From positions 1,514,957-1,578,956 of the forward strand of contig NZ_CM001436.1 of the NCBI RefSeq assembly GCF_000243255.1: a DNA stretch of 64,000 bases, read 5' to 3'. The translations under genes were made by a program, and so were the position numbers. This document shows positions 20,067 through 61,919 of this stretch, in pieces; the first letter of the stretch is position 1; the number at the start of each line of letters is the position of its first letter. The notes beneath the pieces were generated by a model. It was not told where the DNA came from and did no database searches. It saw only the letters and a program-made list of their open reading frames with translations. This DNA comes from Methanoplanus limicola DSM 2279. Lineage in GTDB: Archaea > Halobacteriota > Methanomicrobia > Methanomicrobiales > Methanomicrobiaceae.

Positions 20067-20645
20067 TTAATCCGGAAGTTCAGGACTTGTGGGTATACTT
20101 CCGGATTTGAATATTGAATCTGAAAACAGGGTCAGCTGAGAGATAATAACAGGGTCCAGTCCTTCCTCAATAGCCAGGTATATTCCGGATATATTTAATA
20201 CCTTCATCTTCGATGTCATAAAGTGTATAAATTTTGATACGCTCTTGGATGGCATGTGGATGAGCATTGCATTCACAGAATCCAGGCATATAATCACTCT
20301 CCCTTCACTGCGGTTTTTTATGCTTTCAGATATTGCAACGCTCATTCCGGTTAGGTCTGACGGTGTATTTAAGAATATACATTGATTAAAATCATCGGGT
20401 GGTTTCCCTACGGCATATTTTGTAATTGCATCAATATAATATATTTTAGAAATATCAATCCCGGATTTTTGAAACTGCTTATTCAGGTAAGGCGCAGGCT
20501 GATTAACAGAGATATATATTATCTGTTCTGCTCTTTCTGAGGCTATTTTAACCAGATTAATCGTTGTTTCTCTTAGATTATCCGGAGCTATAAATGCAAG
20601 CAGTATTGCCGGATTCTCATCCGGGAAAATATTTATTTTTTCCAT
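20067..20645 (-). CDS. P-loop-less RecA/KaiC-like protein, copy 1
   Basis: This 192-aa protein has the strand-helix order of a RecA/KaiC core: an opening hydrophobic strand (AILLAFIAP), a second strand (IIYISVN), then KIYYIDAITKYA, and a Walker B-like VIICLDSVNAML near 118. The phosphate-binding loop expected after the first strand is absent, so ATP hydrolysis is unlikely. It shares the pattern IDxITxYA, LDSVxxMLI, FIHFxxxK and GIYLA with the protein at 59196-59759. It begins 7 bp after a PAS protein, the same arrangement as the second copy, so the two work together. It resembles archaeal RecA-like families of unknown function; the exact family name is uncertain. Confidence 0.75.
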   Translation of the reverse strand: MEKINIFPDENPAILLAFIAPDNLRETTINLVKIASERAEQIIYISVNQPAPYLNKQFQKSGIDISKIYYIDAITKYAVGKPPDDFNQCIFLNTPSDLTGMSVAISESIKNRSEGRVIICLDSVNAMLIHMPSKSVSKFIHFMTSKMKVLNISGIYLAIEEGLDPVIISQLTLFSDSIFKSGSIPTSPELPD

Positions 20646-20652
20646 GAACTGT

Positions 20653-21942
20653 TTATTTTATCAGGTATTCTTTGAATGCATCCGGAATTTCCTTTCTTTT
20701 CTCTGTAATTGCTCTGTCCATTTCAGAAAGGTTGTTTTTAATCGTTTTAAGGTTAAAAATCTGTACTGAAAGCTGAATAATTAGATCTTCTCTGTCAATC
20801 TCCTCCTCTTTTTTAAGCTCACAGACAAGATCATTCAGATATTGTTTTACAATATCAACGGGGTTTTTAATTCTCAGTGCAGTCTCCCGTATATATGATA
20901 ATAGATCAAGTTCTGCCTCTTTCTGCTTTCTTATGTCTATTATATTTTCAATGATAACCTTTTTGCCATCAATTTCAGCAATGGCAGCAGATTTTAGTAC
21001 CGGAATTTTGTCTCTGTTTTTTGTAATAAGTACCGTTTCCGTATGATTTACATCCTGACTGAGATCTGATATGGGGCATCTTCCCAATTTATTTGGGCAG
21101 ACGATATTGTGGCAGATATTTCCTTCAATTTCTTCTTCATTATATCCGCCGAGTTTTTTTATTTCCGGATTTGCAGATATGATTTCATGCGTTTTTTCAT
21201 CAAGGATCATCATTCCTGCGGATGTATTCTCCCATAGTGTCCGGAATTTTATTTCTGAAGCTTTAATTTTCTCTTCTGCTTCAACCCTTTTTGTAATATC
21301 AGTTACTGACATTAATATCAGGTTTTTCTCATTTAATTCTGTAAAATTGAGAATAACTGTTTTATCTTCTCCCATTCCTGATTTTAAAATTACTTCTCTG
21401 TAGCAGAATTCTTTTCTGCCTTCTATGCAGCTGTCTATTTCATTATAATTTTTTTTACTGAAGAGATCTTTAATGTCAAGCTTTCCTTCATTATAATTTG
21501 TATATCCTGAGATATTTTTCAGTTCCGGATTCATAACTAAAATCTTCAGATCCGGAGATATAAGTGCAAGCCCGGATTTTGCGCATTCAAATGTTTTATG
21601 GAAGATCTTACGCTCGTCTTCTATTCTTTCGGCAAGTATGATTATTATGCCGCCAATCAGAATATATGAGAGCGATCTTATTATTGCAGGCACAATTACT
21701 GAATAATCCATGGAATAGAAAAATCCAACAGTAGTCAGGTAATAAATACAAAGACCTGATATCAGTATCATGCCATATCTACGGTAGATATAGGCGGATA
21801 ATATTATCGGGATATAGTATATGTGCGGGAAAACGTCAAATATCTGGTTCTGAATACTGTACCAGGTAATTATTATTGTTATAAGGACTGTAAAAATTAT
21901 TATTGTATCTATGAACAGTTTATTATTCACCATTATTTTCAT
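20653..21942 (-). CDS. membrane PAS-PAS sensor with histidine-less H-box-like end, copy 1
   Basis: The 429-aa protein has four N-terminal membrane helices (residues 10-110), two PAS domains (115-225 and 230-345) and a C-terminal helical domain of about 85 residues. The second PAS carries CPNKLGRCP, a pattern often seen in methanogen PAS domains. The last domain looks like a dimerisation/phospho-acceptor helical pair, but where a kinase has His it reads ALRIKNPVDIV, and no ATPase domain follows. It cannot be a normal histidine kinase. I infer that it passes its signal by contact to the RecA-like protein encoded 7 bp downstream. A closely similar end occurs at 59768-60796. Confidence 0.8.
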   Translation of the reverse strand: MKIMVNNKLFIDTIIIFTVLITIIITWYSIQNQIFDVFPHIYYIPIILSAYIYRRYGMILISGLCIYYLTTVGFFYSMDYSVIVPAIIRSLSYILIGGIIIILAERIEDERKIFHKTFECAKSGLALISPDLKILVMNPELKNISGYTNYNEGKLDIKDLFSKKNYNEIDSCIEGRKEFCYREVILKSGMGEDKTVILNFTELNEKNLILMSVTDITKRVEAEEKIKASEIKFRTLWENTSAGMMILDEKTHEIISANPEIKKLGGYNEEEIEGNICHNIVCPNKLGRCPISDLSQDVNHTETVLITKNRDKIPVLKSAAIAEIDGKKVIIENIIDIRKQKEAELDLLSYIRETALRIKNPVDIVKQYLNDLVCELKKEEEIDREDLIIQLSVQIFNLKTIKNNLSEMDRAITEKRKEIPDAFKEYLIK

Positions 21943-22849: not shown

Positions 22850-25800
22850 TTAATCATCTGATTTTTTATTCTTACCGTTTTCTGATATTATGCCGTGGTG
22901 TTTCGTCAGATAATCTCTTATTTTTGCAGATTCAAGCCATCCGCGATCAAGACGGGTAATTATATCATTGATCTGCATAGACTGGTCAAGAATTTTATCC
23001 TTAAATTTCTCCTCACCCAGATCTGCAAGACCAACTATTATTGTGAGCGGATTTCTGATCTCATCATTTAGTATTGCAAGTTGTGCTATATTTTTTTCAA
23101 TCTGTTTAAGAGCGTTATTTTCACGTATTCTTGCCTCTTTCTCTTCAGTAATATCCCGTGCAAGTGAAATAATGTAATATTGGCCGCCCAGTTCAATCAT
23201 TCTTGCTTTGACATGTACAGGGAAGGCAGAGCCGTCTTTTCTTTTATGTTCGGCTTCAAATGAGATCTGTTCGTTCTTTTTAAGAGCATTTATAATCACC
23301 GGTTCATTTTTATTTATACTTTTAGTGTTAATAGCTTTGATTGAAAGTTTTAACAGTTCATCCCTTGAGTAACCCAGGCGGCGGCAGGCAACATCATTGA
23401 CTTCAACAAAATTACCAAGTGTATTGTCCTGTTCTATCTTATGGAGAAATACGGCCTCATTTATATTGTTAAATAGTTCATGGTATTTCTGCTCCCTTTC
23501 TTTTAGTGCATCTTCGGCCTTCTTTTTTTCAGTAAGATCATTATATACTGATACCACTTCTCCGGAAGGGAGCCTGTATATGAAATTCTCTCTCCAACCG
23601 TGAATTCTCTCATCCCTATATTCGCCTAACTGATAATGCTCAGGTTTTCCTGTTGACCATACCTTTTTTAGTCTGTCAATTAATCCAAACTCCTCAACAC
23701 CGGGAAATACATCGTAAATGCTTCTGTTTATTATTTTATCTCTTTCAATGGCGTCTATCTCTTCAGAGGCTTTATTAATATCTTTAAATATAAAGTCTTC
23801 ACCTTTATCAGTCACTCCATATATGGCAACACCGCTGCTCATATTATTGAACAATTCCCTGAATCTCTCTTCACTGTTCTTCAGATTGATCTCTGCATTT
23901 TTTCTGTCGATATAATTTCCTATTCTCTCACAGATAATTTCAAGAAGGTTTTTTTCTTCATTGAGAAATTCCCCTGAGTACCCGTCCGGAGAATGGTTGA
24001 GGTAACATACGGTTATTTCACCTTCTTTAATATTATCTGAATAAAAATCGTTCTCTATTGCAATATCACTCTTATAATATCCTTCTGTCTGATATCTCTT
24101 CCCTCCTTTTTCAATTGAAACACCGGTGGACTCTGGATACTGCATGGCATTTTTTATGATATTGGCTACAGCATAAAAAAATTCATCTTCATCCGGTTTC
24201 CTAATCATAAGGTCAGAGATCTCTTTTAATGCAGTCAGCTCCTTAACTCTCTCTGATAACTGAAAGGAAGTCTGAACAATTTTTTCTTCCGCTGATTTAA
24301 CTTCGCTTATATCCCTTATGGATTCTATAGCACCTACAACATTTTTATCAGAATCATAAAGCGGTGATGCGGTAAACCAGAGATATGCTCCCTTTCCCTC
24401 TGCAAGATAGGGTACATAATTTTCTGCTACCAGTTTATCTCCTTCTTTATATAATAGGGGGTATCTGGATTTGTCTCTGAGTTTTTCATTAAGTATGAGA
24501 TCTATTAATAACGGTCTTCTCCTGCCATATACCTTTATTGAGTATTCAGAATTGTTCTTTCCAATTATTTCTGATGCAGGTGTGCCTGTCATCCTTTCCA
24601 TTGCTTTATTCCATGTAATTACCCTGCCTTTTTTATCAACGGCAAAAGTTGCATCCGGAAGGAAATTTATTATATTTAATAGCCTGTTTTCACTTTCAAG
24701 CAGTTTATTCTTGCTCTCAAGAATTTCGTTGTAACTCTGCCTTAATTCTTCCTCATTTTCTTCAAGTTCCCCATATGCAACTGTCAGTCTCCGGTTAATC
24801 TCTAATATTTCTGTTTTCTGAATGAGGCGTTCTTCTTCAAGTTCAATACTATAAAGAGCAAATCCGAGATCGCCTGACACTTCTGAAAATAGATTATACT
24901 CCTCATCATCCGGTGTTTTATCATCCGGAATTGATATTGAAATTACTCCAAATAATTTATTCCTGTATTTCAGACTTTTTGTAAGTCTTTTAATTTGTTT
25001 TGGGTTGTCAGATAGGGGGCACTCACCGCAGTTTTCATGAGTTTCGGATTTGACAGTTATTTCATCAGATTCAATGGCTTTTTCTGCACACTTGGGAATA
25101 TTCCCGCCTTCAATGTATTCTTTAAAGGGATAATTACTCTTATCCGGATTTGAATGTGCCCAATTTATGACATTTTTATTTTCGTCAAATAAAATAATCC
25201 AGGCATTGTTATATCCTCCGTTATCAGTAAGTATCCTGCATGTTTTTTCAATCAGATTTTCTTTGTTCTTAACACTTACAATTAATCTGTTTATATTTCT
25301 GATTGCGTCAAGCAGGCGGTTTAACTGGTATATTTTATATTCTGACTCTTTTCTGTCCGTTATATCGGTTGAAAATGCAAGATATTTTCTGTCCGGCAGT
25401 GCAGTTGTACTTAGTATTACCGGGCATGCGGAACCGTCTTTCCTTTTAAGGTTAATCTCATGAATATATTGATTTCTATTTTTTAGTTTCTCAAAATATT
25501 CGGGTGATTTGCCTGATTTCTCTTCAATTACAAGTTCCTGGACCGACATTGTGAGAAGTTCATCTTCGGTGTATCCAAGTGTCTCACAGGCTGCTTTATT
25601 AACCTCAATGAAACTACCCTGCTCATCTGCAACAAAAATTCCTTCCGGAGATCTGTCAATATAGCTGCGGTATTTCTCTTCAGATAATTGAAGCCTCTTT
25701 TCTGTCTCTTTATGCTCAATAAGAATTCTTGCAAGTTTAATATTGCTGTAGCTCAGCCTTGAGACCATCAGTGCAAATTTTTTATAAAAAGACATTATAT

Positions 25801-27856
25801 TGCGGATTTTTTCCCTTTTAAGACGGGGTACTTTCTCCAGTGCTGCAAGATATTTTGTCCTGTCAAAACCGTAAGTTTCTGCCTGTTTTTCAAAGACTGA
25901 GTAATCCGGAATTTCATCTTCGTAGAAGAACTGCCCCAGGTACATATTTCCCATATGCCTGCCGGCGATATAGATCGGTGTTGAAATATCCCAGAGATTG
26001 TTTTTGCATTTGTACTGCCTGATCTCTCCCGGTTTTATATCTGTTGTCAGTTCCAAATCGCTTTCATTACAGTTTTTCTGCGTTTCAGGATGTATACGAT
26101 GGAATTTTGTGCATATATCCTGCCATCCGGCTGCAATAAGAATATTTCCCTTTGTATCAAGAATTGCAATTCCTATATCTGTAATTCTGTGAAAGTCATC
26201 CATCAGTGACTGAATTTCTTCGGTGTTTATGATATTCCTTAATTCTTCGTCTTTTATGTCATAATCGGGAGAGAGAATACTTTCAAGCTTTAGCCTGATT
26301 TTTTCTTCATTATCCCGGATAATTTTCTCTTTTTCTTTCTCTTCTGTGATGTCGGAGAGTGTTGTTGAGAGATATAACGGGTTGTTATTTTTATCAGAAA
26401 TGACATTTGCATTCATCCTTGTCGGAAATATTCTGCCGCTTTTATGCCTGTGCCAGACTTCCTTATCCTCAAAATGTCCTTTTTCCTTTAGTTGATCAAG
26501 CAGAGCATTTACATAACCGATATGTTCTTCTGAGTGCAGGAATTTTATTGGTTTTCCTGTTAGCTCATCCGGGCTGTATCCGTGCAGATCTGCAAACCAT
26601 CTGTTTGTGTAGGTAAGTCTGCCGTTTAAATCTGCTATTGCAATGCCATAATTTGCATTGTCTGATACTTTCTTAAATTTTCTAATGGTATCTTCTGAAA
26701 TTTTATTCTCTGTTATGTCAATAATAATTCCCTGAAGGTGTGTCAGTTTCCCGTTATTGTCATATTTTGTGAATACATGATCTTCTATAAATCTGATATT
26801 ATTATTTGCGTCATAAATCCTGTAATTAAGAATGAAATCGTCATTTCCGGAAGTTATGTTCTTCTTTATTTTATTACTGATTACCGGCAGGTCATCCGGA
26901 TGAATCAGAGATTTATAGTTTAGATTACCTGATCTGAAGTCATCCGGAGAATATCCGAACTGAGATATATTATCACTGATTAGTTCTATATTTCGCGGGT
27001 CTTCTACATCCTGAAGGTAGATTATAACCGGACTTTTATTGATTATATTTATCTGCTCTTTTAATTTCTCTGAGACTGCTTTGATTTTTTCCTCGGCATT
27101 AACTCTTTTGGTAATGTCAATCCCAGACTCAATAACCATCTCCTCGTCTGCCGGCCCTTTTATTATTGTGTCATGTACAGAATAAATTCTCCCGTCATCA
27201 CTAAGCCATCTCGAAGACTGCTCTTTTTTTGTCTTTAAAACCTCATGTACCGGACAGTTGTCATAATCTCCATTAAGGCATTCTGTCAGTTCAAAATATG
27301 TATAGTTCTCCGGTTCCCCAAAAATCCGGATAAATTCATCATTTGCCAGATAGATGGACATATCCTGTTTTATGATGCATGAAAATCCGGGCATGAGGTT
27401 TAGTATATGGGAGACATTTATCTTGTATTCTTTTTCTCTCTTATTACTGACTGCTCTTAAAAAATTAATGATTCTCCTGGCCGGAAAATCTGTCTCTTTT
27501 TCATTGCCGGATTTGTATTCGATATAAAGATCAATATTCCTTAACAGTTCCTTTTCCCTGTAATTTTCTCCATTCTCTTCCGTGAGAAGTATAAGAGGGA
27601 TATTTGGGTAAAGTTCCTTTATATTATTAATGAGCTGATCAGTCTCTTTGTTTTTTACAGATTCACAGAAAATTATGGCATCATAGATTAATTCCGGAGA
27701 GCTTTTGCCGGCCGATAATTCATTCAGTTCTGAATCAGTGACTGATATTATTTTAATATCCGTGATTCTTCTGATTGTTGAAAGAACTTCGTTAAATATC
27801 TCCTTATCTTCAGCAACAGCCAGAATGTTATTTATATTGACACCCCCATTTACCAT
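22850..27856 (-). CDS. 1668-aa multi-sensor protein without kinase domain (PAS, PocR, GAF)
   Basis: Domains in order: a receiver-like fold (10-140) in which the acceptor Asp is missing (IIFCESVK), three PAS domains (150-515), a PocR sensor (540-690, with WQDICTKFHRIHPETQKNC), PAS (715-840), GAF (845-1000), coiled coil, PAS (1035-1160), GAF (1170-1290) and two more PAS domains (to 1560). It ends in an H-box-like helix pair reading ILNDEIRNPLTIIVG, where Asn stands in place of the phospho-acceptor His. No ATPase domain exists. It therefore gathers many signals but cannot phosphorylate itself in the usual way. It converges on the response regulator gene, with 27 bp between them. Confidence 0.85.
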   Translation of the reverse strand: MVNGGVNINNILAVAEDKEIFNEVLSTIRRITDIKIISVTDSELNELSAGKSSPELIYDAIIFCESVKNKETDQLINNIKELYPNIPLILLTEENGENYREKELLRNIDLYIEYKSGNEKETDFPARRIINFLRAVSNKREKEYKINVSHILNLMPGFSCIIKQDMSIYLANDEFIRIFGEPENYTYFELTECLNGDYDNCPVHEVLKTKKEQSSRWLSDDGRIYSVHDTIIKGPADEEMVIESGIDITKRVNAEEKIKAVSEKLKEQINIINKSPVIIYLQDVEDPRNIELISDNISQFGYSPDDFRSGNLNYKSLIHPDDLPVISNKIKKNITSGNDDFILNYRIYDANNNIRFIEDHVFTKYDNNGKLTHLQGIIIDITENKISEDTIRKFKKVSDNANYGIAIADLNGRLTYTNRWFADLHGYSPDELTGKPIKFLHSEEHIGYVNALLDQLKEKGHFEDKEVWHRHKSGRIFPTRMNANVISDKNNNPLYLSTTLSDITEEKEKEKIIRDNEEKIRLKLESILSPDYDIKDEELRNIINTEEIQSLMDDFHRITDIGIAILDTKGNILIAAGWQDICTKFHRIHPETQKNCNESDLELTTDIKPGEIRQYKCKNNLWDISTPIYIAGRHMGNMYLGQFFYEDEIPDYSVFEKQAETYGFDRTKYLAALEKVPRLKREKIRNIMSFYKKFALMVSRLSYSNIKLARILIEHKETEKRLQLSEEKYRSYIDRSPEGIFVADEQGSFIEVNKAACETLGYTEDELLTMSVQELVIEEKSGKSPEYFEKLKNRNQYIHEINLKRKDGSACPVILSTTALPDRKYLAFSTDITDRKESEYKIYQLNRLLDAIRNINRLIVSVKNKENLIEKTCRILTDNGGYNNAWIILFDENKNVINWAHSNPDKSNYPFKEYIEGGNIPKCAEKAIESDEITVKSETHENCGECPLSDNPKQIKRLTKSLKYRNKLFGVISISIPDDKTPDDEEYNLFSEVSGDLGFALYSIELEEERLIQKTEILEINRRLTVAYGELEENEEELRQSYNEILESKNKLLESENRLLNIINFLPDATFAVDKKGRVITWNKAMERMTGTPASEIIGKNNSEYSIKVYGRRRPLLIDLILNEKLRDKSRYPLLYKEGDKLVAENYVPYLAEGKGAYLWFTASPLYDSDKNVVGAIESIRDISEVKSAEEKIVQTSFQLSERVKELTALKEISDLMIRKPDEDEFFYAVANIIKNAMQYPESTGVSIEKGGKRYQTEGYYKSDIAIENDFYSDNIKEGEITVCYLNHSPDGYSGEFLNEEKNLLEIICERIGNYIDRKNAEINLKNSEERFRELFNNMSSGVAIYGVTDKGEDFIFKDINKASEEIDAIERDKIINRSIYDVFPGVEEFGLIDRLKKVWSTGKPEHYQLGEYRDERIHGWRENFIYRLPSGEVVSVYNDLTEKKKAEDALKEREQKYHELFNNINEAVFLHKIEQDNTLGNFVEVNDVACRRLGYSRDELLKLSIKAINTKSINKNEPVIINALKKNEQISFEAEHKRKDGSAFPVHVKARMIELGGQYYIISLARDITEEKEARIRENNALKQIEKNIAQLAILNDEIRNPLTIIVGLADLGEEKFKDKILDQSMQINDIITRLDRGWLESAKIRDYLTKHHGIISENGKNKKSDD

Positions 27857-57915: not shown

Positions 57916-58941
57916 TCATCTTTTCTGATTATACAGTGCCCAGATTTTACATGCGCCTTCGTGGCTGACCATACAAGGGCCGACAGGTTTTTGCGGTGTA
58001 CAGGCTTTGCCAAAGAGTCTGCAGTCGGTTGGATCAGCAACTCCTCTCAAGACCTTATCGCAGATGCAGGCTGAATGTTTCTCAACATGCCTGATTTCAA
58101 CATTAAATTTTTTCAGTGCGTCATATTTCTCAAATTCCGGTTTTAGTTTAAGGCCGGAGTCCGGAATGACAGGAAAACCTCTCCAGTCCACATCATGTGA
58201 TTCAAATACCCGGTACATCATTTCCATAGCCTTTTTATTTCCTTCTCTTGAAACAGCACGCGGATAGGCATTTTCAACCTCAGCCCTTCCTTCCTTCACC
58301 TGTTTTACAAGCATATACAGGCCAAGTAAAATATCGTCTGCTTCAAAGCCTGCAACAACCTGAGGCACTCTGAATTTTTCGTAATCTTCGTACCCGGCTA
58401 CGACACATACGTGCCCCGGAAGCATGAATCCGTCAATCTGTGCCTCGCCCTGTTCAAGAAGATACTTCATTGCCGGAGGAACGAACCTGTGGCAGCATAC
58501 AATGCTGAAATTTTCCGGGGGGTTTGTAAGCAGTGCTGCGGCAACTGTAGGTGCAGTTGTCTCAAATCCGACAGATATGAAGACAACTTCTTTATCTGTC
58601 TTCTCCGCAATTTCAACTGCCTTGTGAACGCCCTGCACAACACGTACATCGCCATCTATAGAGTCCAGTGATCCTTTTGTTCCGGGAACTCTCATCAGGT
58701 CACCGTAGGTTGCCACAATACAGCCTTTTTCAGCCATTTCTATTGCAGCGTCAATTTCACCCTGCGGGGTGATACATACCGGGCAGCCCGGCCCCATTAC
58801 AATCTTCAAATCGTCCGGAAGAATACTTCTAAGGCCTGATTTTGCTATTGCAGCTTCATGTGTGCCGCAGATATGCATGAATGTATATTTCCGGTCGACA
58901 ATATCGTCAAGTGCTTTTTTAATGTCCTTTCCCTCAGCCAT
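57916..58941 (-). CDS. hypD: hydrogenase maturation factor HypD
   Basis: This 341-aa iron-sulfur protein, with HypC, carries and builds the Fe(CN)2CO unit of [NiFe]-hydrogenases. It shows FMHICGTHE (about residues 20-28), GPGCPVCITP, VGFETTAPT, LPGHVCVVAGYE and the C-terminal cluster region HSACICDKVLRG...CRLFGKAC, all in expected order and length. No other hyp gene is next to it, so the set is scattered. It is preceded downstream by the tRNA-Arg gene. Confidence 0.95.
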   Translation of the reverse strand: MAEGKDIKKALDDIVDRKYTFMHICGTHEAAIAKSGLRSILPDDLKIVMGPGCPVCITPQGEIDAAIEMAEKGCIVATYGDLMRVPGTKGSLDSIDGDVRVVQGVHKAVEIAEKTDKEVVFISVGFETTAPTVAAALLTNPPENFSIVCCHRFVPPAMKYLLEQGEAQIDGFMLPGHVCVVAGYEDYEKFRVPQVVAGFEADDILLGLYMLVKQVKEGRAEVENAYPRAVSREGNKKAMEMMYRVFESHDVDWRGFPVIPDSGLKLKPEFEKYDALKKFNVEIRHVEKHSACICDKVLRGVADPTDCRLFGKACTPQKPVGPCMVSHEGACKIWALYNQKR

Positions 58942-59195
58942 AATTAAAAAATATTTAATTTTAATATGATTTATTCATATTCAAAAGTTCTTAGAGATTC
59001 AGAAATATCATATGGAGAATATCTTCCGGTATTTACTGATGAATGGAATTCTGATTTCTGGTCAATAATTTTATTCCATATGTGCAATATATGTGTGTGT
59101 TTTAAGAGTATAATAGTAGCAGGCTCGGATTTTGTTTTTGCTGCGCTAAAATGCTGTTTAAGTTATTTGACAGATGCAATAGTTATAATGATGAT

Positions 59196-59759
59196 TTAAC
59201 TGGAAAAAAAATCATCTATCTCTTCTTTATCCTCAATTACGGCGTCAACAAAGGTTCTCAGCTGCATGAGGAGTGCTGGATTTATACCACCTCCGGTGGC
59301 CATAAAAATACCCTTTGAATTTTTAAGCCTTATTTTGTTGACTATAAAATGGAGAAATCTGGTTATCTTATCTGAAGATGTATATATCAGCATTGAAGTG
59401 ACAGAATCAAAGAGAAAGACAATTCTGTCATTTTCGATATTATTCAGTAATTTAGTTATTGCAATGCCGATCTCAGTGAGGTTTTCAGGTGTACTGACAT
59501 ACTGGACTGAATCTGAATTTCCCGGGTTTGATCCGAGGGCATATCTTGTTATTAGATCTATAAAATAGACATTCTTCATCTCAATGCCTTTTGATTCATA
59601 TTCTTTAGTGAGAATTGATGCCGGAAGATTGGATGTAATTATCACAACATTATAATTATTTCTGGACAGAACTGAAGTTAATGCTACATTCTCCTCTTTT
59701 AGGTCCATGGCATTGGATAATATCAGGACAAGACTATTATCACTAAAACTCCGGCTCAT
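59196..59759 (-). CDS. P-loop-less RecA/KaiC-like protein, copy 2
   Basis: This 187-aa protein parallels the one at 20067-20645: LVLILSNAMD in the first strand without a P-loop after it, VVIITSNLPASI, then NVYFIDLITRYALGS, Walker B-like RIVFLFDSVTSMLIYTSS near 115, FLHFIVNKIR and GIFMATGGGINPALLMQL. ATP binding through a normal Walker A is not possible. It begins 8 bp after the PAS protein at 59768-60796, as in the first copy. The pair is therefore a conserved unit; the role is unknown. Confidence 0.78.
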   Translation of the reverse strand: MSRSFSDNSLVLILSNAMDLKEENVALTSVLSRNNYNVVIITSNLPASILTKEYESKGIEMKNVYFIDLITRYALGSNPGNSDSVQYVSTPENLTEIGIAITKLLNNIENDRIVFLFDSVTSMLIYTSSDKITRFLHFIVNKIRLKNSKGIFMATGGGINPALLMQLRTFVDAVIEDKEEIDDFFSS

Positions 59760-59767
59760 ATTTACGG

Positions 59768-60796
59768 CTAATTATCAAAATATTCTCTGTATTCTGCCGG
59801 AATTTCATTATAACTGCCTATTATAGTCTGTGTCAGCTCCCGGAGGTTGTGGGTAATCTGCTCTGTATTTTTTATCTGGACCTGAAGGTGTATCAGAAGA
59901 TCTTCCTTGCTGAGGGCATCTTTTTTGAGAAGTTCTACAAGGTTTATCAGGTTTATTCTTACAAGTTCTGATGGATTTCTAAGTCGCATAACTGCTTCTG
60001 AGATGTATTTTATCATTGTGTCAAACATCTTTTTCTCAAGAGTTATGTCGGTTGCAATGACAGATGCTCCTTTTATATTGCCGTATTCATCGTATATCGG
60101 TGAATTGCTTATAAGAACATTGAGTTTCTGGCCGGATTTTGTAACTCTGATAACCTCAATAACATCCATTGTTTCCCCTGAGAATACTTTATTGAGTTCT
60201 TTTTCAAAAAATTTCATTCTTTCAGGAGGTACTATCACAGAGACATTTTTGCCGATCATCTCCTGCTCTTTAAAACCGTACATTCTTTCAGCACCTTTGT
60301 TCCAGGATACAACGGAATAGTCCTTTGCTATGCCAATTATTGCGTCATTGGAGTGATTTACAATCTGTGAAAGATATTCGTGCTCGGCCTTGTACTTTTT
60401 TCTTTCGGTAAAATCCTTTACAGCTAAAATTATATGTGGTTTACCTGAAATCTGGATACAGGATGCAGTTACATTTAAAAATAACAATTTTTTATCTTTA
60501 TTTATACCTTTTAAATTAAGCTTGACTATTTTTCCGGGGTTTAATGCAGCCTTTTTGATTGATTTATATTCTTCTGATAATTCACTGTTGTAATCATCAT
60601 TTATCAGATATTCTGCTTTTAGCTCTGAAAATTCTTCAGAATTATAACCAAATATTTTTTCAGCATTTTCATTGTGGTATATGATCCTTCCGGACGTACT
60701 GGTTATTATCAGTCCGTCCGGAAAAACTGAAATAATATCTTTAAGAGTATCAGAATCAAATCCGGCCAGACTGCTTGATCTTTTATTGTCAGACAT
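59768..60796 (-). CDS. soluble PAS-PAS sensor with histidine-less H-box-like end, copy 2
   Basis: This 342-aa protein has two PAS domains (about 20-135, with IIYHNENAEKIFGYNSEE, and 140-258, with SVVSWNKGAERMYGFKEQEM) and a C-terminal helical domain (262-342) reading YISEAVMRLRNPSELVRINL. No ATPase domain follows, and the phospho-acceptor His is absent. It lacks the membrane helices of copy 1, so it senses a cytoplasmic signal. GGAG 8 nt before ATG 60796 (MSDNKRSS) decides that start over ATG 60817. The RecA-like gene follows after 8 bp. Confidence 0.82.
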   Translation of the reverse strand: MSDNKRSSSLAGFDSDTLKDIISVFPDGLIITSTSGRIIYHNENAEKIFGYNSEEFSELKAEYLINDDYNSELSEEYKSIKKAALNPGKIVKLNLKGINKDKKLLFLNVTASCIQISGKPHIILAVKDFTERKKYKAEHEYLSQIVNHSNDAIIGIAKDYSVVSWNKGAERMYGFKEQEMIGKNVSVIVPPERMKFFEKELNKVFSGETMDVIEVIRVTKSGQKLNVLISNSPIYDEYGNIKGASVIATDITLEKKMFDTMIKYISEAVMRLRNPSELVRINLINLVELLKKDALSKEDLLIHLQVQIKNTEQITHNLRELTQTIIGSYNEIPAEYREYFDN

Positions 60797-60962
60797 ATTT
60801 TTGCTCCATTTAAACAATTTTTCCAGATAACGTAACGATATTTTAGCTAAAACATCACATTTATCTCTTTTGTTTTTATATGATTAAATAATATTTCTGT
60901 TTGGTTCTGCTGCGGTAACAGTTATTGTGAATAAGTTTAATAATACTCATAATCAGATTTTC

Positions 60963-61178
60963 ATGTCGAAAAAAGATATACGTACTGAGAAATATGCAAT
61001 TATAGATGTAAATAGGTGTGTATTGTGTGGTTCATGTCAGGAGAAATGTCCGGAGCATGCTATTGTATATGACCCTGAAAAAGATTGCTTTGTTGTGTTA
61101 AGGGGGCATTGTATTGGTTGTGGAATATGTCTTAAATGCTGTCCGTACAGTATTCCTGAACTAAAAGTTATATTATAA
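60963..61178 (+). CDS. 2[4Fe-4S] ferredoxin
   Basis: This 71-aa protein holds two four-iron cluster motifs, CVLCGSCQEKCPEHAI and CIGCGICLKCCPYSI, the pattern of a bacterial-type ferredoxin electron carrier. The frame opens at GTG 60927; ATG 60963 (MSKKDIRTEK) is preferred because homologous ferredoxins start about here, though no strong Shine-Dalgarno is seen. The next gene begins 15 bp later, suggesting an operon with the TIM-barrel protein. Confidence 0.88.
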   Translation: MSKKDIRTEKYAIIDVNRCVLCGSCQEKCPEHAIVYDPEKDCFVVLRGHCIGCGICLKCCPYSIPELKVIL

Positions 61179-61193
61179 TGATTTGTGATTAGT

Positions 61194-61919
61194 ATGATGC
61201 TCGGAATTTCAACCCACTGTCTGATGGAAATGCCGCTGGAAAATGCCCTGTCTGCACTGGATAAAGTATGTGACGTTGTTGAAATTATGAATGATGGCAT
61301 GCATCATATTGAAAATCCTGATATTCCTCTGCTTTTTGATTATAAATATTTCATGCACGCGCCTTCGAGAAGTGTAAATATTGCCTCTCATCTTGAACCG
61401 ATAAGAAGAGGTAGCGTTGAGGTTATATCTGAAACAATTGAAATCGCGGCACATATTGATGCTGGCGGTGTTGTTTTTCATCCGGGATATTTTGCATGGG
61501 AGAAGGATCGCGATGTTGCTGTCTTTCAGCTTCAGAAGTCGCTTCTTGAATTAAAGGAGCTGTCAGAAAATTATTCAGTCCCTCTTTTTGTTGAGAACAT
61601 GACTAAATGGCCGTATTTTTTCCTCAAAACGCCCAAAGATCTCCCTCTGATTACAGATTTTGGTTTTGTTCTTGATGTCGGGCATGCAAATCTGAATTCA
61701 TGTCTGGATGAATTTCTGCAGGTTAGGATCTCACATTTTCATCTTCACGACAACTATGGGGCCGAGGATGATCATTTCACGATTGGAAAGGGAAATATTT
61801 ATTTTGAGCCTGTTTATGATGCTATCCGGAAGAATGACTGTTCGGCAATAATTGAAGTAGGATCGTTTGAAGGGGCAAAGAGAAGTTATAGTCTCGTTAA
61901 GGATAAACTTGGGATCTGA
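61194..61919 (+). CDS. xylose isomerase-like TIM-barrel protein
   Basis: This protein of about 241 aa belongs to the sugar phosphate isomerase/epimerase (AP endonuclease 2-like) barrel. Metal-binding points are visible: VVFHPGYFAWEKDRD, FVENMTKWP, FVLDVGHANLN, HFHLHDNYGAEDDHF and IIEVGSFEGAK, giving His, Glu, Asp and His ligands. Function could be sugar isomerisation or DNA repair; the sequence alone does not decide. The frame opens at GTG 61185; GTGAT makes ATG 61194 (or 61197) the better start. Ferredoxin lies just upstream. Confidence 0.82.
   Translation: MMLGISTHCLMEMPLENALSALDKVCDVVEIMNDGMHHIENPDIPLLFDYKYFMHAPSRSVNIASHLEPIRRGSVEVISETIEIAAHIDAGGVVFHPGYFAWEKDRDVAVFQLQKSLLELKELSENYSVPLFVENMTKWPYFFLKTPKDLPLITDFGFVLDVGHANLNSCLDEFLQVRISHFHLHDNYGAEDDHFTIGKGNIYFEPVYDAIRKNDCSAIIEVGSFEGAKRSYSLVKDKLGI

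Follow-up and report, generated by a model that had tools for sequence, protein, structure and literature searches.

Two gene pairs in the window

Which protein takes up the signal of a sensor that has neither a kinase ATPase domain nor an acceptor His? This question is raised by positions 59196-60796 of the window, which here means the whole stretch of 64,000 nucleotides of Methanoplanus limicola DSM 2279 that was analysed, where a PAS protein is followed by a small KaiC-like protein. The genome is 3.2 Mb in one contig, and the loci most closely related to the window all belonged to Methanomicrobiales. Our preferred reading, with a probability of about 0.7, is that the two genes form a sensor-adaptor module specific to this order, which works without phosphotransfer and in which the C-terminal domain of the sensor (CTD) docks its own inactivated KaiC (iKaiC). 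The two pairs in the window consist of the following features.

59768-60796, minus strand: sensor gene of pair 1, a PAS-PAS protein without kinase ATPase, ATG start at 60796
60392-60748 (approximate limits), minus strand: first PAS domain of the pair 1 sensor, from PAS_8/PAS_9 matches and sequence
60029-60388, minus strand: second PAS domain (S-box) of the pair 1 sensor, PAS_9 E=4.9e-29 and TIGR00229
59771-60028, minus strand: CTD of the pair 1 sensor, helical, with E-x3-R-x3-P, no acceptor His and an IPxxYRxFL-like tail
59760-59767: intergenic gap of pair 1, 8 bp
59196-59759, minus strand: iKaiC (DUF7504) of pair 1, 187 aa, predicted KaiC fold without P-loop
20653-21942, minus strand: sensor gene of pair 2, with N-terminal membrane segments, PAS domains and CTD
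20656-20916, minus strand: CTD of the pair 2 sensor, the C-terminal domain shared with pair 1
20067-20645, minus strand: iKaiC of pair 2, 192 aa, 32% identical to the pair 1 iKaiC

The open frame of the pair 1 sensor extends to a TTG at 60817, from which the product (59768-60817, minus strand) would have 349 aa. In pair 2 the gap between sensor and iKaiC is 7 bp. The match between the two RecA-like proteins has E=2e-38, the two sensors are 31% identical with the last 85 residues included, and HATPase_c was absent from both sensors in a domain profile search. The sequence-only reading had described a PAS sensor without kinase ATPase and without His, a RecA/KaiC-like gene without P-loop 8 bp behind it, and the same order with a 7 bp gap at 20067-21942. 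All of this was borne out by the open reading frames, the identities and the profile search, and by the CTD alignment, the DUF7504 match and the fold model given below. That reading had counted two copies; the genome holds six pairs, and the module is far more widespread than it supposed.

The KaiC-like partner

The pair 1 iKaiC matched the Pfam family DUF7504 (PF24336) with 43.3 bits against a cut-off of 27, and its match to KaiC was weak. At E<=0.01, DUF7504 was matched by all 81 iKaiC proteins scanned, DUF7090 by 50 and DUF835 by 41. An AlphaFold2 model built on an alignment of 81 sequences reached pLDDT 91.6 and pTM 0.89, and the nearest folds in Foldseek were FlaH, PH0321, KaiC and PH0284 (prob 1.00), together with Elp456. 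Elp4, Elp5 and Elp6 are RecA-fold subunits of one ring. On this model we are confident that the downstream protein adopts a KaiC/RecA fold; the iKaiC profile detected no sequence match among PDB chains.

A P-loop motif (Walker A) was found in none of the 111 distinct iKaiC proteins. In the model, a single residue separates the strand at residues 10-15 from the helix at 17-33, which leaves no space for a phosphate loop; judged from the model, the P-loop is missing altogether instead of being mutated. By family and predicted fold, the downstream protein is an inactivated KaiC of the DUF7504 class, and its genomic context suggests a role in signal transduction. A hidden P-loop or kinase ATPase domain was sought in the 111 iKaiC proteins and among the commonest families of 74 paired sensors, and none was found; this candidate was rejected by motif scan, Pfam matches and the AlphaFold model.

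Several residues of iKaiC are highly conserved. P91, T95 and H137 are invariant across the 111 proteins, and a Walker-B-like strand (113-117) ends in D118-S119, each residue kept in 107 of 111. After strand 2 lies the motif ITxNxP (N44 in 103/111, P46 in 108/111), which we take to occupy the place where the catalytic Glu pair of KaiC would be expected. The invariant polar residues H137 and T95 and the kept D118-S119 would also suit catalysis at an unusual site, with iKaiC still binding nucleotide or being modified and the pair acting as a divergent kinase or switch. We consider this clearly improbable, as the P-loop is missing in all 111 pairs, strand 1 meets helix 1 without a loop, and ITxNxP presumably stands in the position of the Glu pair.

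A separate, usually single-copy KaiC-like protein without clear P-loop also occurs (L053:1940-2653, L054:2287-2994). Its conserved neighbours are a diphthine synthase-looking methyltransferase, an FeoB-like GTPase and a KaiC-GTPase-like protein.

The shared C-terminal domain of the sensors

The CTD has about 85 residues, and E11, R15 and P19 are nearly invariant among the 111 pairs. In the AlphaFold model it consists of two long helices forming a hairpin and a short third helix. In 107 of 111 cases the sensor continues for only 0-5 residues beyond it. The inputs in front of it are diverse: among 74 paired sensors, PAS occurs in 58, receiver in 9 and GAF in 8, Cache domains are also present, and membrane types occur. 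HATPase and HisKA were not among the 25 commonest Pfam families of these 74 sensors.

Resemblance of the CTD to a kinase dimerisation unit, as the sequence-only reading had proposed, is plausible by the shape of the hairpin model and weakly supported by homology. Among Pfam families, HisKA was matched by the largest number of CTDs, 13 of 59, with a best E of 0.0028. An hhalign comparison with HisKA gave a probability of 13%, a weak alignment but in the right register, against 96.6% for a control of HisKA and a HisKA-like set. The CTD profile against PDB gave helical coincidences and one weak histidine kinase match. Because the homology with HisKA is weak, "DHp-like" refers here to the shape and place of the CTD and makes no claim on its descent.

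These HisKA matches, the in-register alignment and the many histidine kinases in the order could be taken to mean that the CTD is a decayed HisKA phosphorylated in trans by the ordinary histidine kinases of the cell, with iKaiC as the readout. This is very improbable, because the acceptor position holds Leu or Met, which are not phosphorylatable, in most of the 111 CTDs, His is not among its common residues, and the common families of the paired sensors include no kinase domain.

Another protein in the window (22850-27856, minus strand), of 1668 aa and with multiple PAS domains, ends in a different HisKA-type domain, in which the usual His is missing (LNDEIRNPL...LDRGWLESAKIRDYL). Twelve proteins like it were aligned as a second class of kinase-less sensors.

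Linkage and distribution

All six iKaiC genes of this type in the genome lie directly downstream of a CTD gene (6/6). Across 100 Methanomicrobiales genomes, 98 of 103 iKaiC genes were directly downstream of a CTD gene on the same strand, the median distance from CTD match to iKaiC match was 32 bp, and up to seven pairs occurred per genome; 111 distinct pairs were collected. Both partners were present in 46 of the 100 genomes, no genome had iKaiC without any CTD, and four had only CTDs without tail. The co-occurrence, checked in this way across genomes, is near perfect. Neither of the refuting conditions that the sequence-only reading had named, absence of co-occurrence elsewhere or a hidden P-loop or ATPase domain, came true. 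Chance adjacency was rejected by the 98/103 linkage in the order.

The exceptions are of several kinds. One iKaiC (L041) has a degenerate receiver-CTD-like gene upstream. In two related genomes (L039, L040) a diverged iKaiC stands at the syntenic locus of pair 1 with no sensor adjoining; as in the window at 57916-61919, hypD is on one flank and a sugar-isomerase-like gene on the other. Within the strong group, these lone proteins have diverged most (163-164 bits). About 25 CTD proteins without adjoining iKaiC were found in genomes that have pairs, and some tail-less CTDs (receiver-CTD) occur in genomes possessing iKaiC.

In the four genomes with only tail-less CTDs (G015, G032, G041, G092), where the IPxxYRxFL tail is missing, this type of iKaiC is missing too. 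The sensors of G015 and G032 (L217, L218) share 56-57% identity with a sensor from their genus that is paired; they stop just before the tail, and the neighbouring iKaiC is gone. This joint loss is a hint that the tail may dock iKaiC, but it is not strong evidence, because one deletion spanning the boundary between the two genes would account for the loss of both.

With the CTD profile, 16 of 118 genomes sampled from the phylum were positive and all 16 were Methanomicrobiales; outside this order the CTD was not found among the 118. Relatives of DUF7504 outside the order stand in other contexts without a CTD gene, some in clusters of KaiC-like genes. At L077, L078, L080 and L082 the relative is itself part of a cluster of KaiC-like genes, which hints at KaiC-like ATPases as partners of iKaiC proteins. 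In DPANN archaea (L125, L127, L130) the gene after a DUF7504 relative (132-137 bits) encodes a small membrane protein, and a neighbour of a similar kind occurs at L070 and L074.

Small membrane-CTD proteins, with or without iKaiC, are encoded divergently from an adjoining transporter-like gene (L014, L016, L032, L042, L051, L225). The transporter looks like the SLC13/DASS type and is a possible regulatory target.

Inheritance and possible docking of the partners

For 19 genomes with multiple pairs, the closest counterparts of a pair's iKaiC and CTD in another genome belonged to one and the same pair in 58% of cases. When partners were shuffled within genomes the agreement was 39.5% (sd 4.3), and none of 300 shuffles reached 58%. 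This test, used in place of a simple distance correlation among paralogs (p=0.06), shows at the sequence level that the pairs are stably inherited as matched units. Cognate binding would require such co-inheritance, but co-divergence is also expected from stable linkage alone and is not proof of binding. Direct coupling analysis of 107 non-redundant pairs (effective 72 sequences) mixed inter- and intra-protein scores and was too shallow to use, and no fusion of CTD and iKaiC in a single ORF, which would be Rosetta-stone evidence, was found.

For a docking model, CTD and iKaiC were joined into one chain by translating across the stop codon in pairs whose two genes are naturally in frame, with 34 paired rows and single rows in the alignment. 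The tethered AlphaFold model had pLDDT 85.7 and pTM 0.79, with a disordered linker. The support for docking from this structure prediction is moderate, because we roughly estimate a pTM of about 0.7 for iKaiC with a freely placed CTD and the tether itself imposes nearness. A contact-based output, which the sequence-only reading had favoured, fits all data and is still inference, its direct support being the tethered model and the co-divergence.

The two genes may instead be co-transcribed without forming a complex, the CTD contacting other proteins, iKaiC separately binding KaiC-like ATPases, and the operon only matching their amounts. Orphan CTD sensors would agree with this, as would the DUF7504 relatives among KaiC-like genes outside the order, which have no CTD gene. 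We hold it to be rather unlikely, given the 98/103 linkage in one fixed order, the lack of any genome with iKaiC but without CTD, the cognate co-divergence and the moderate docking signal.

The stressosome variant

In four genomes (G000, G001, G006, G018) the CTD is carried by a short coiled-coil protein with iKaiC next to it (L177-L180). The genes upstream of it encode STAS, STAS, HATPase and HATPase-SpoIIE proteins, which is the RsbR-S-T-X order of a stressosome.

L177:3529-7240 (likewise L178, L179 and L180): stressosome cassette with CTD-iKaiC pair, from gene order and Pfam

In the cassettes of G000 and G006, the two searched with Pfam, the SpoIIE matches were just under the cut-off of 25 bits (22.7 and 24.7). 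The RsbX-like phosphatase of the archaeal cassette also carries a fused HATPase domain. The genes downstream of rsbRSTX in bacteria encode signalling proteins of various kinds, some with HisKA and HATPase domains, and V. vulnificus has a two-component protein in this place; the cassette is also said to occur in some archaea (PMC9237108). The archaeal cassettes share the upstream order of STAS, STAS, HATPase and HATPase-SpoIIE with the bacterial ones but differ downstream, where the coiled coil-CTD and iKaiC genes stand in place of a kinase or other known output. A plasmid search gave no bacterial homologue of the coiled coil-CTD protein. By analogy, the variant suggests that the pair can take the place of a histidine kinase.

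Proposed mechanism

Sensors with changeable inputs share a CTD without His or ATPase, the next gene encodes a P-loop-less protein of KaiC fold, and the two are nearly always co-encoded, co-occur across genomes and co-diverge. In the sensor-adaptor module that we propose, the CTD would dimerise like the DHp domain of a histidine kinase and would dock its own iKaiC, probably through the conserved IPxxYRxFL tail. A signal in the input domains would alter the hairpin and thereby change the exposure or the oligomeric state of iKaiC allosterically. The iKaiC would then relay the signal by binding a further partner, which may be a KaiC-like ATPase or another target, and no phosphate would be passed within the pair. 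The arrangement would resemble a histidine kinase transmitter in which a separately encoded, inactive RecA-fold subunit replaces the ATPase domain. A phosphate-free relay by contact would account for the loss of catalytic residues alongside the conservation of the folds, of several surface residues and of the pairing.

As a wider and more tentative idea, to which we give somewhat less than even odds, the pair could be a pseudo two-component system, in which a His-less transmitter and an ATPase-dead RecA-fold subunit replace the kinase core, and many inputs, even a whole stressosome, signal by cognate contact alone in Methanomicrobiales.

Comparison with known systems

Many archaeal signalling proteins combine sensor and dimerisation parts without an evident output, and the 2018 census (PMC5847659) called their partners unknown. 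For the kinase-less sensors described here, the gene neighbourhood points to the partner very consistently, with as many as seven pairs in a single genome. This pairing makes it directly testable whether a kinase-less sensor has an inactivated KaiC as its output subunit, and what that KaiC binds next.

The sequence-only reading had regarded the module as undescribed, which holds in part. Inactivated KaiC-like proteins in archaeal signalling were already proposed by Makarova, Galperin and Koonin (mBio 2017, as quoted and listed by Galperin et al. 2018, PMC5847659), and the RecA-like protein belongs to DUF7504. Among the papers searched, none was found to describe the specific CTD-iKaiC pair, the CTD itself or the stressosome variant, although the mBio 2017 paper on iKaiC could do so. 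The Pfam entry DUF7504 and its neighbours DUF7090 and DUF835, which are matched here, carry no function, and the DUF7504 relatives outside the order differ from the iKaiC proteins described here in having no CTD partner.

The iKaiC proteins of the 2018 census table (PMC5847659) are similar to those described here in KaiC fold, loss of ATPase motifs and proposed signalling role. The table lists iKaiC-REC, REC-DUF835 and REC-PAS-PAS-DUF835, which are fusions in a single chain, whereas iKaiC here is always a separate protein paired with a dedicated CTD. ArlH/FlaH and Elongator Elp456 (PDB 4yds, 4a8j) share the fold of iKaiC without a sequence match. HisKA proteins without ATPase, such as the REC-PAS/GAF-HisKA protein AF_1472 (PMC5847659), are also sensor-type proteins with a dimerisation-type domain; they have a recognisable HisKA, while HisKA can barely be detected in the CTD, whose sensor gene has a fixed partner gene beside it. 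The pseudo-histidine kinase DivL of Caulobacter (PMC4211667) is similar in that an architecture derived from kinases is reused for contact signalling. DivL keeps and repurposes its catalytic-type domain, whereas the module described here lacks this domain and encodes a RecA-fold subunit instead.
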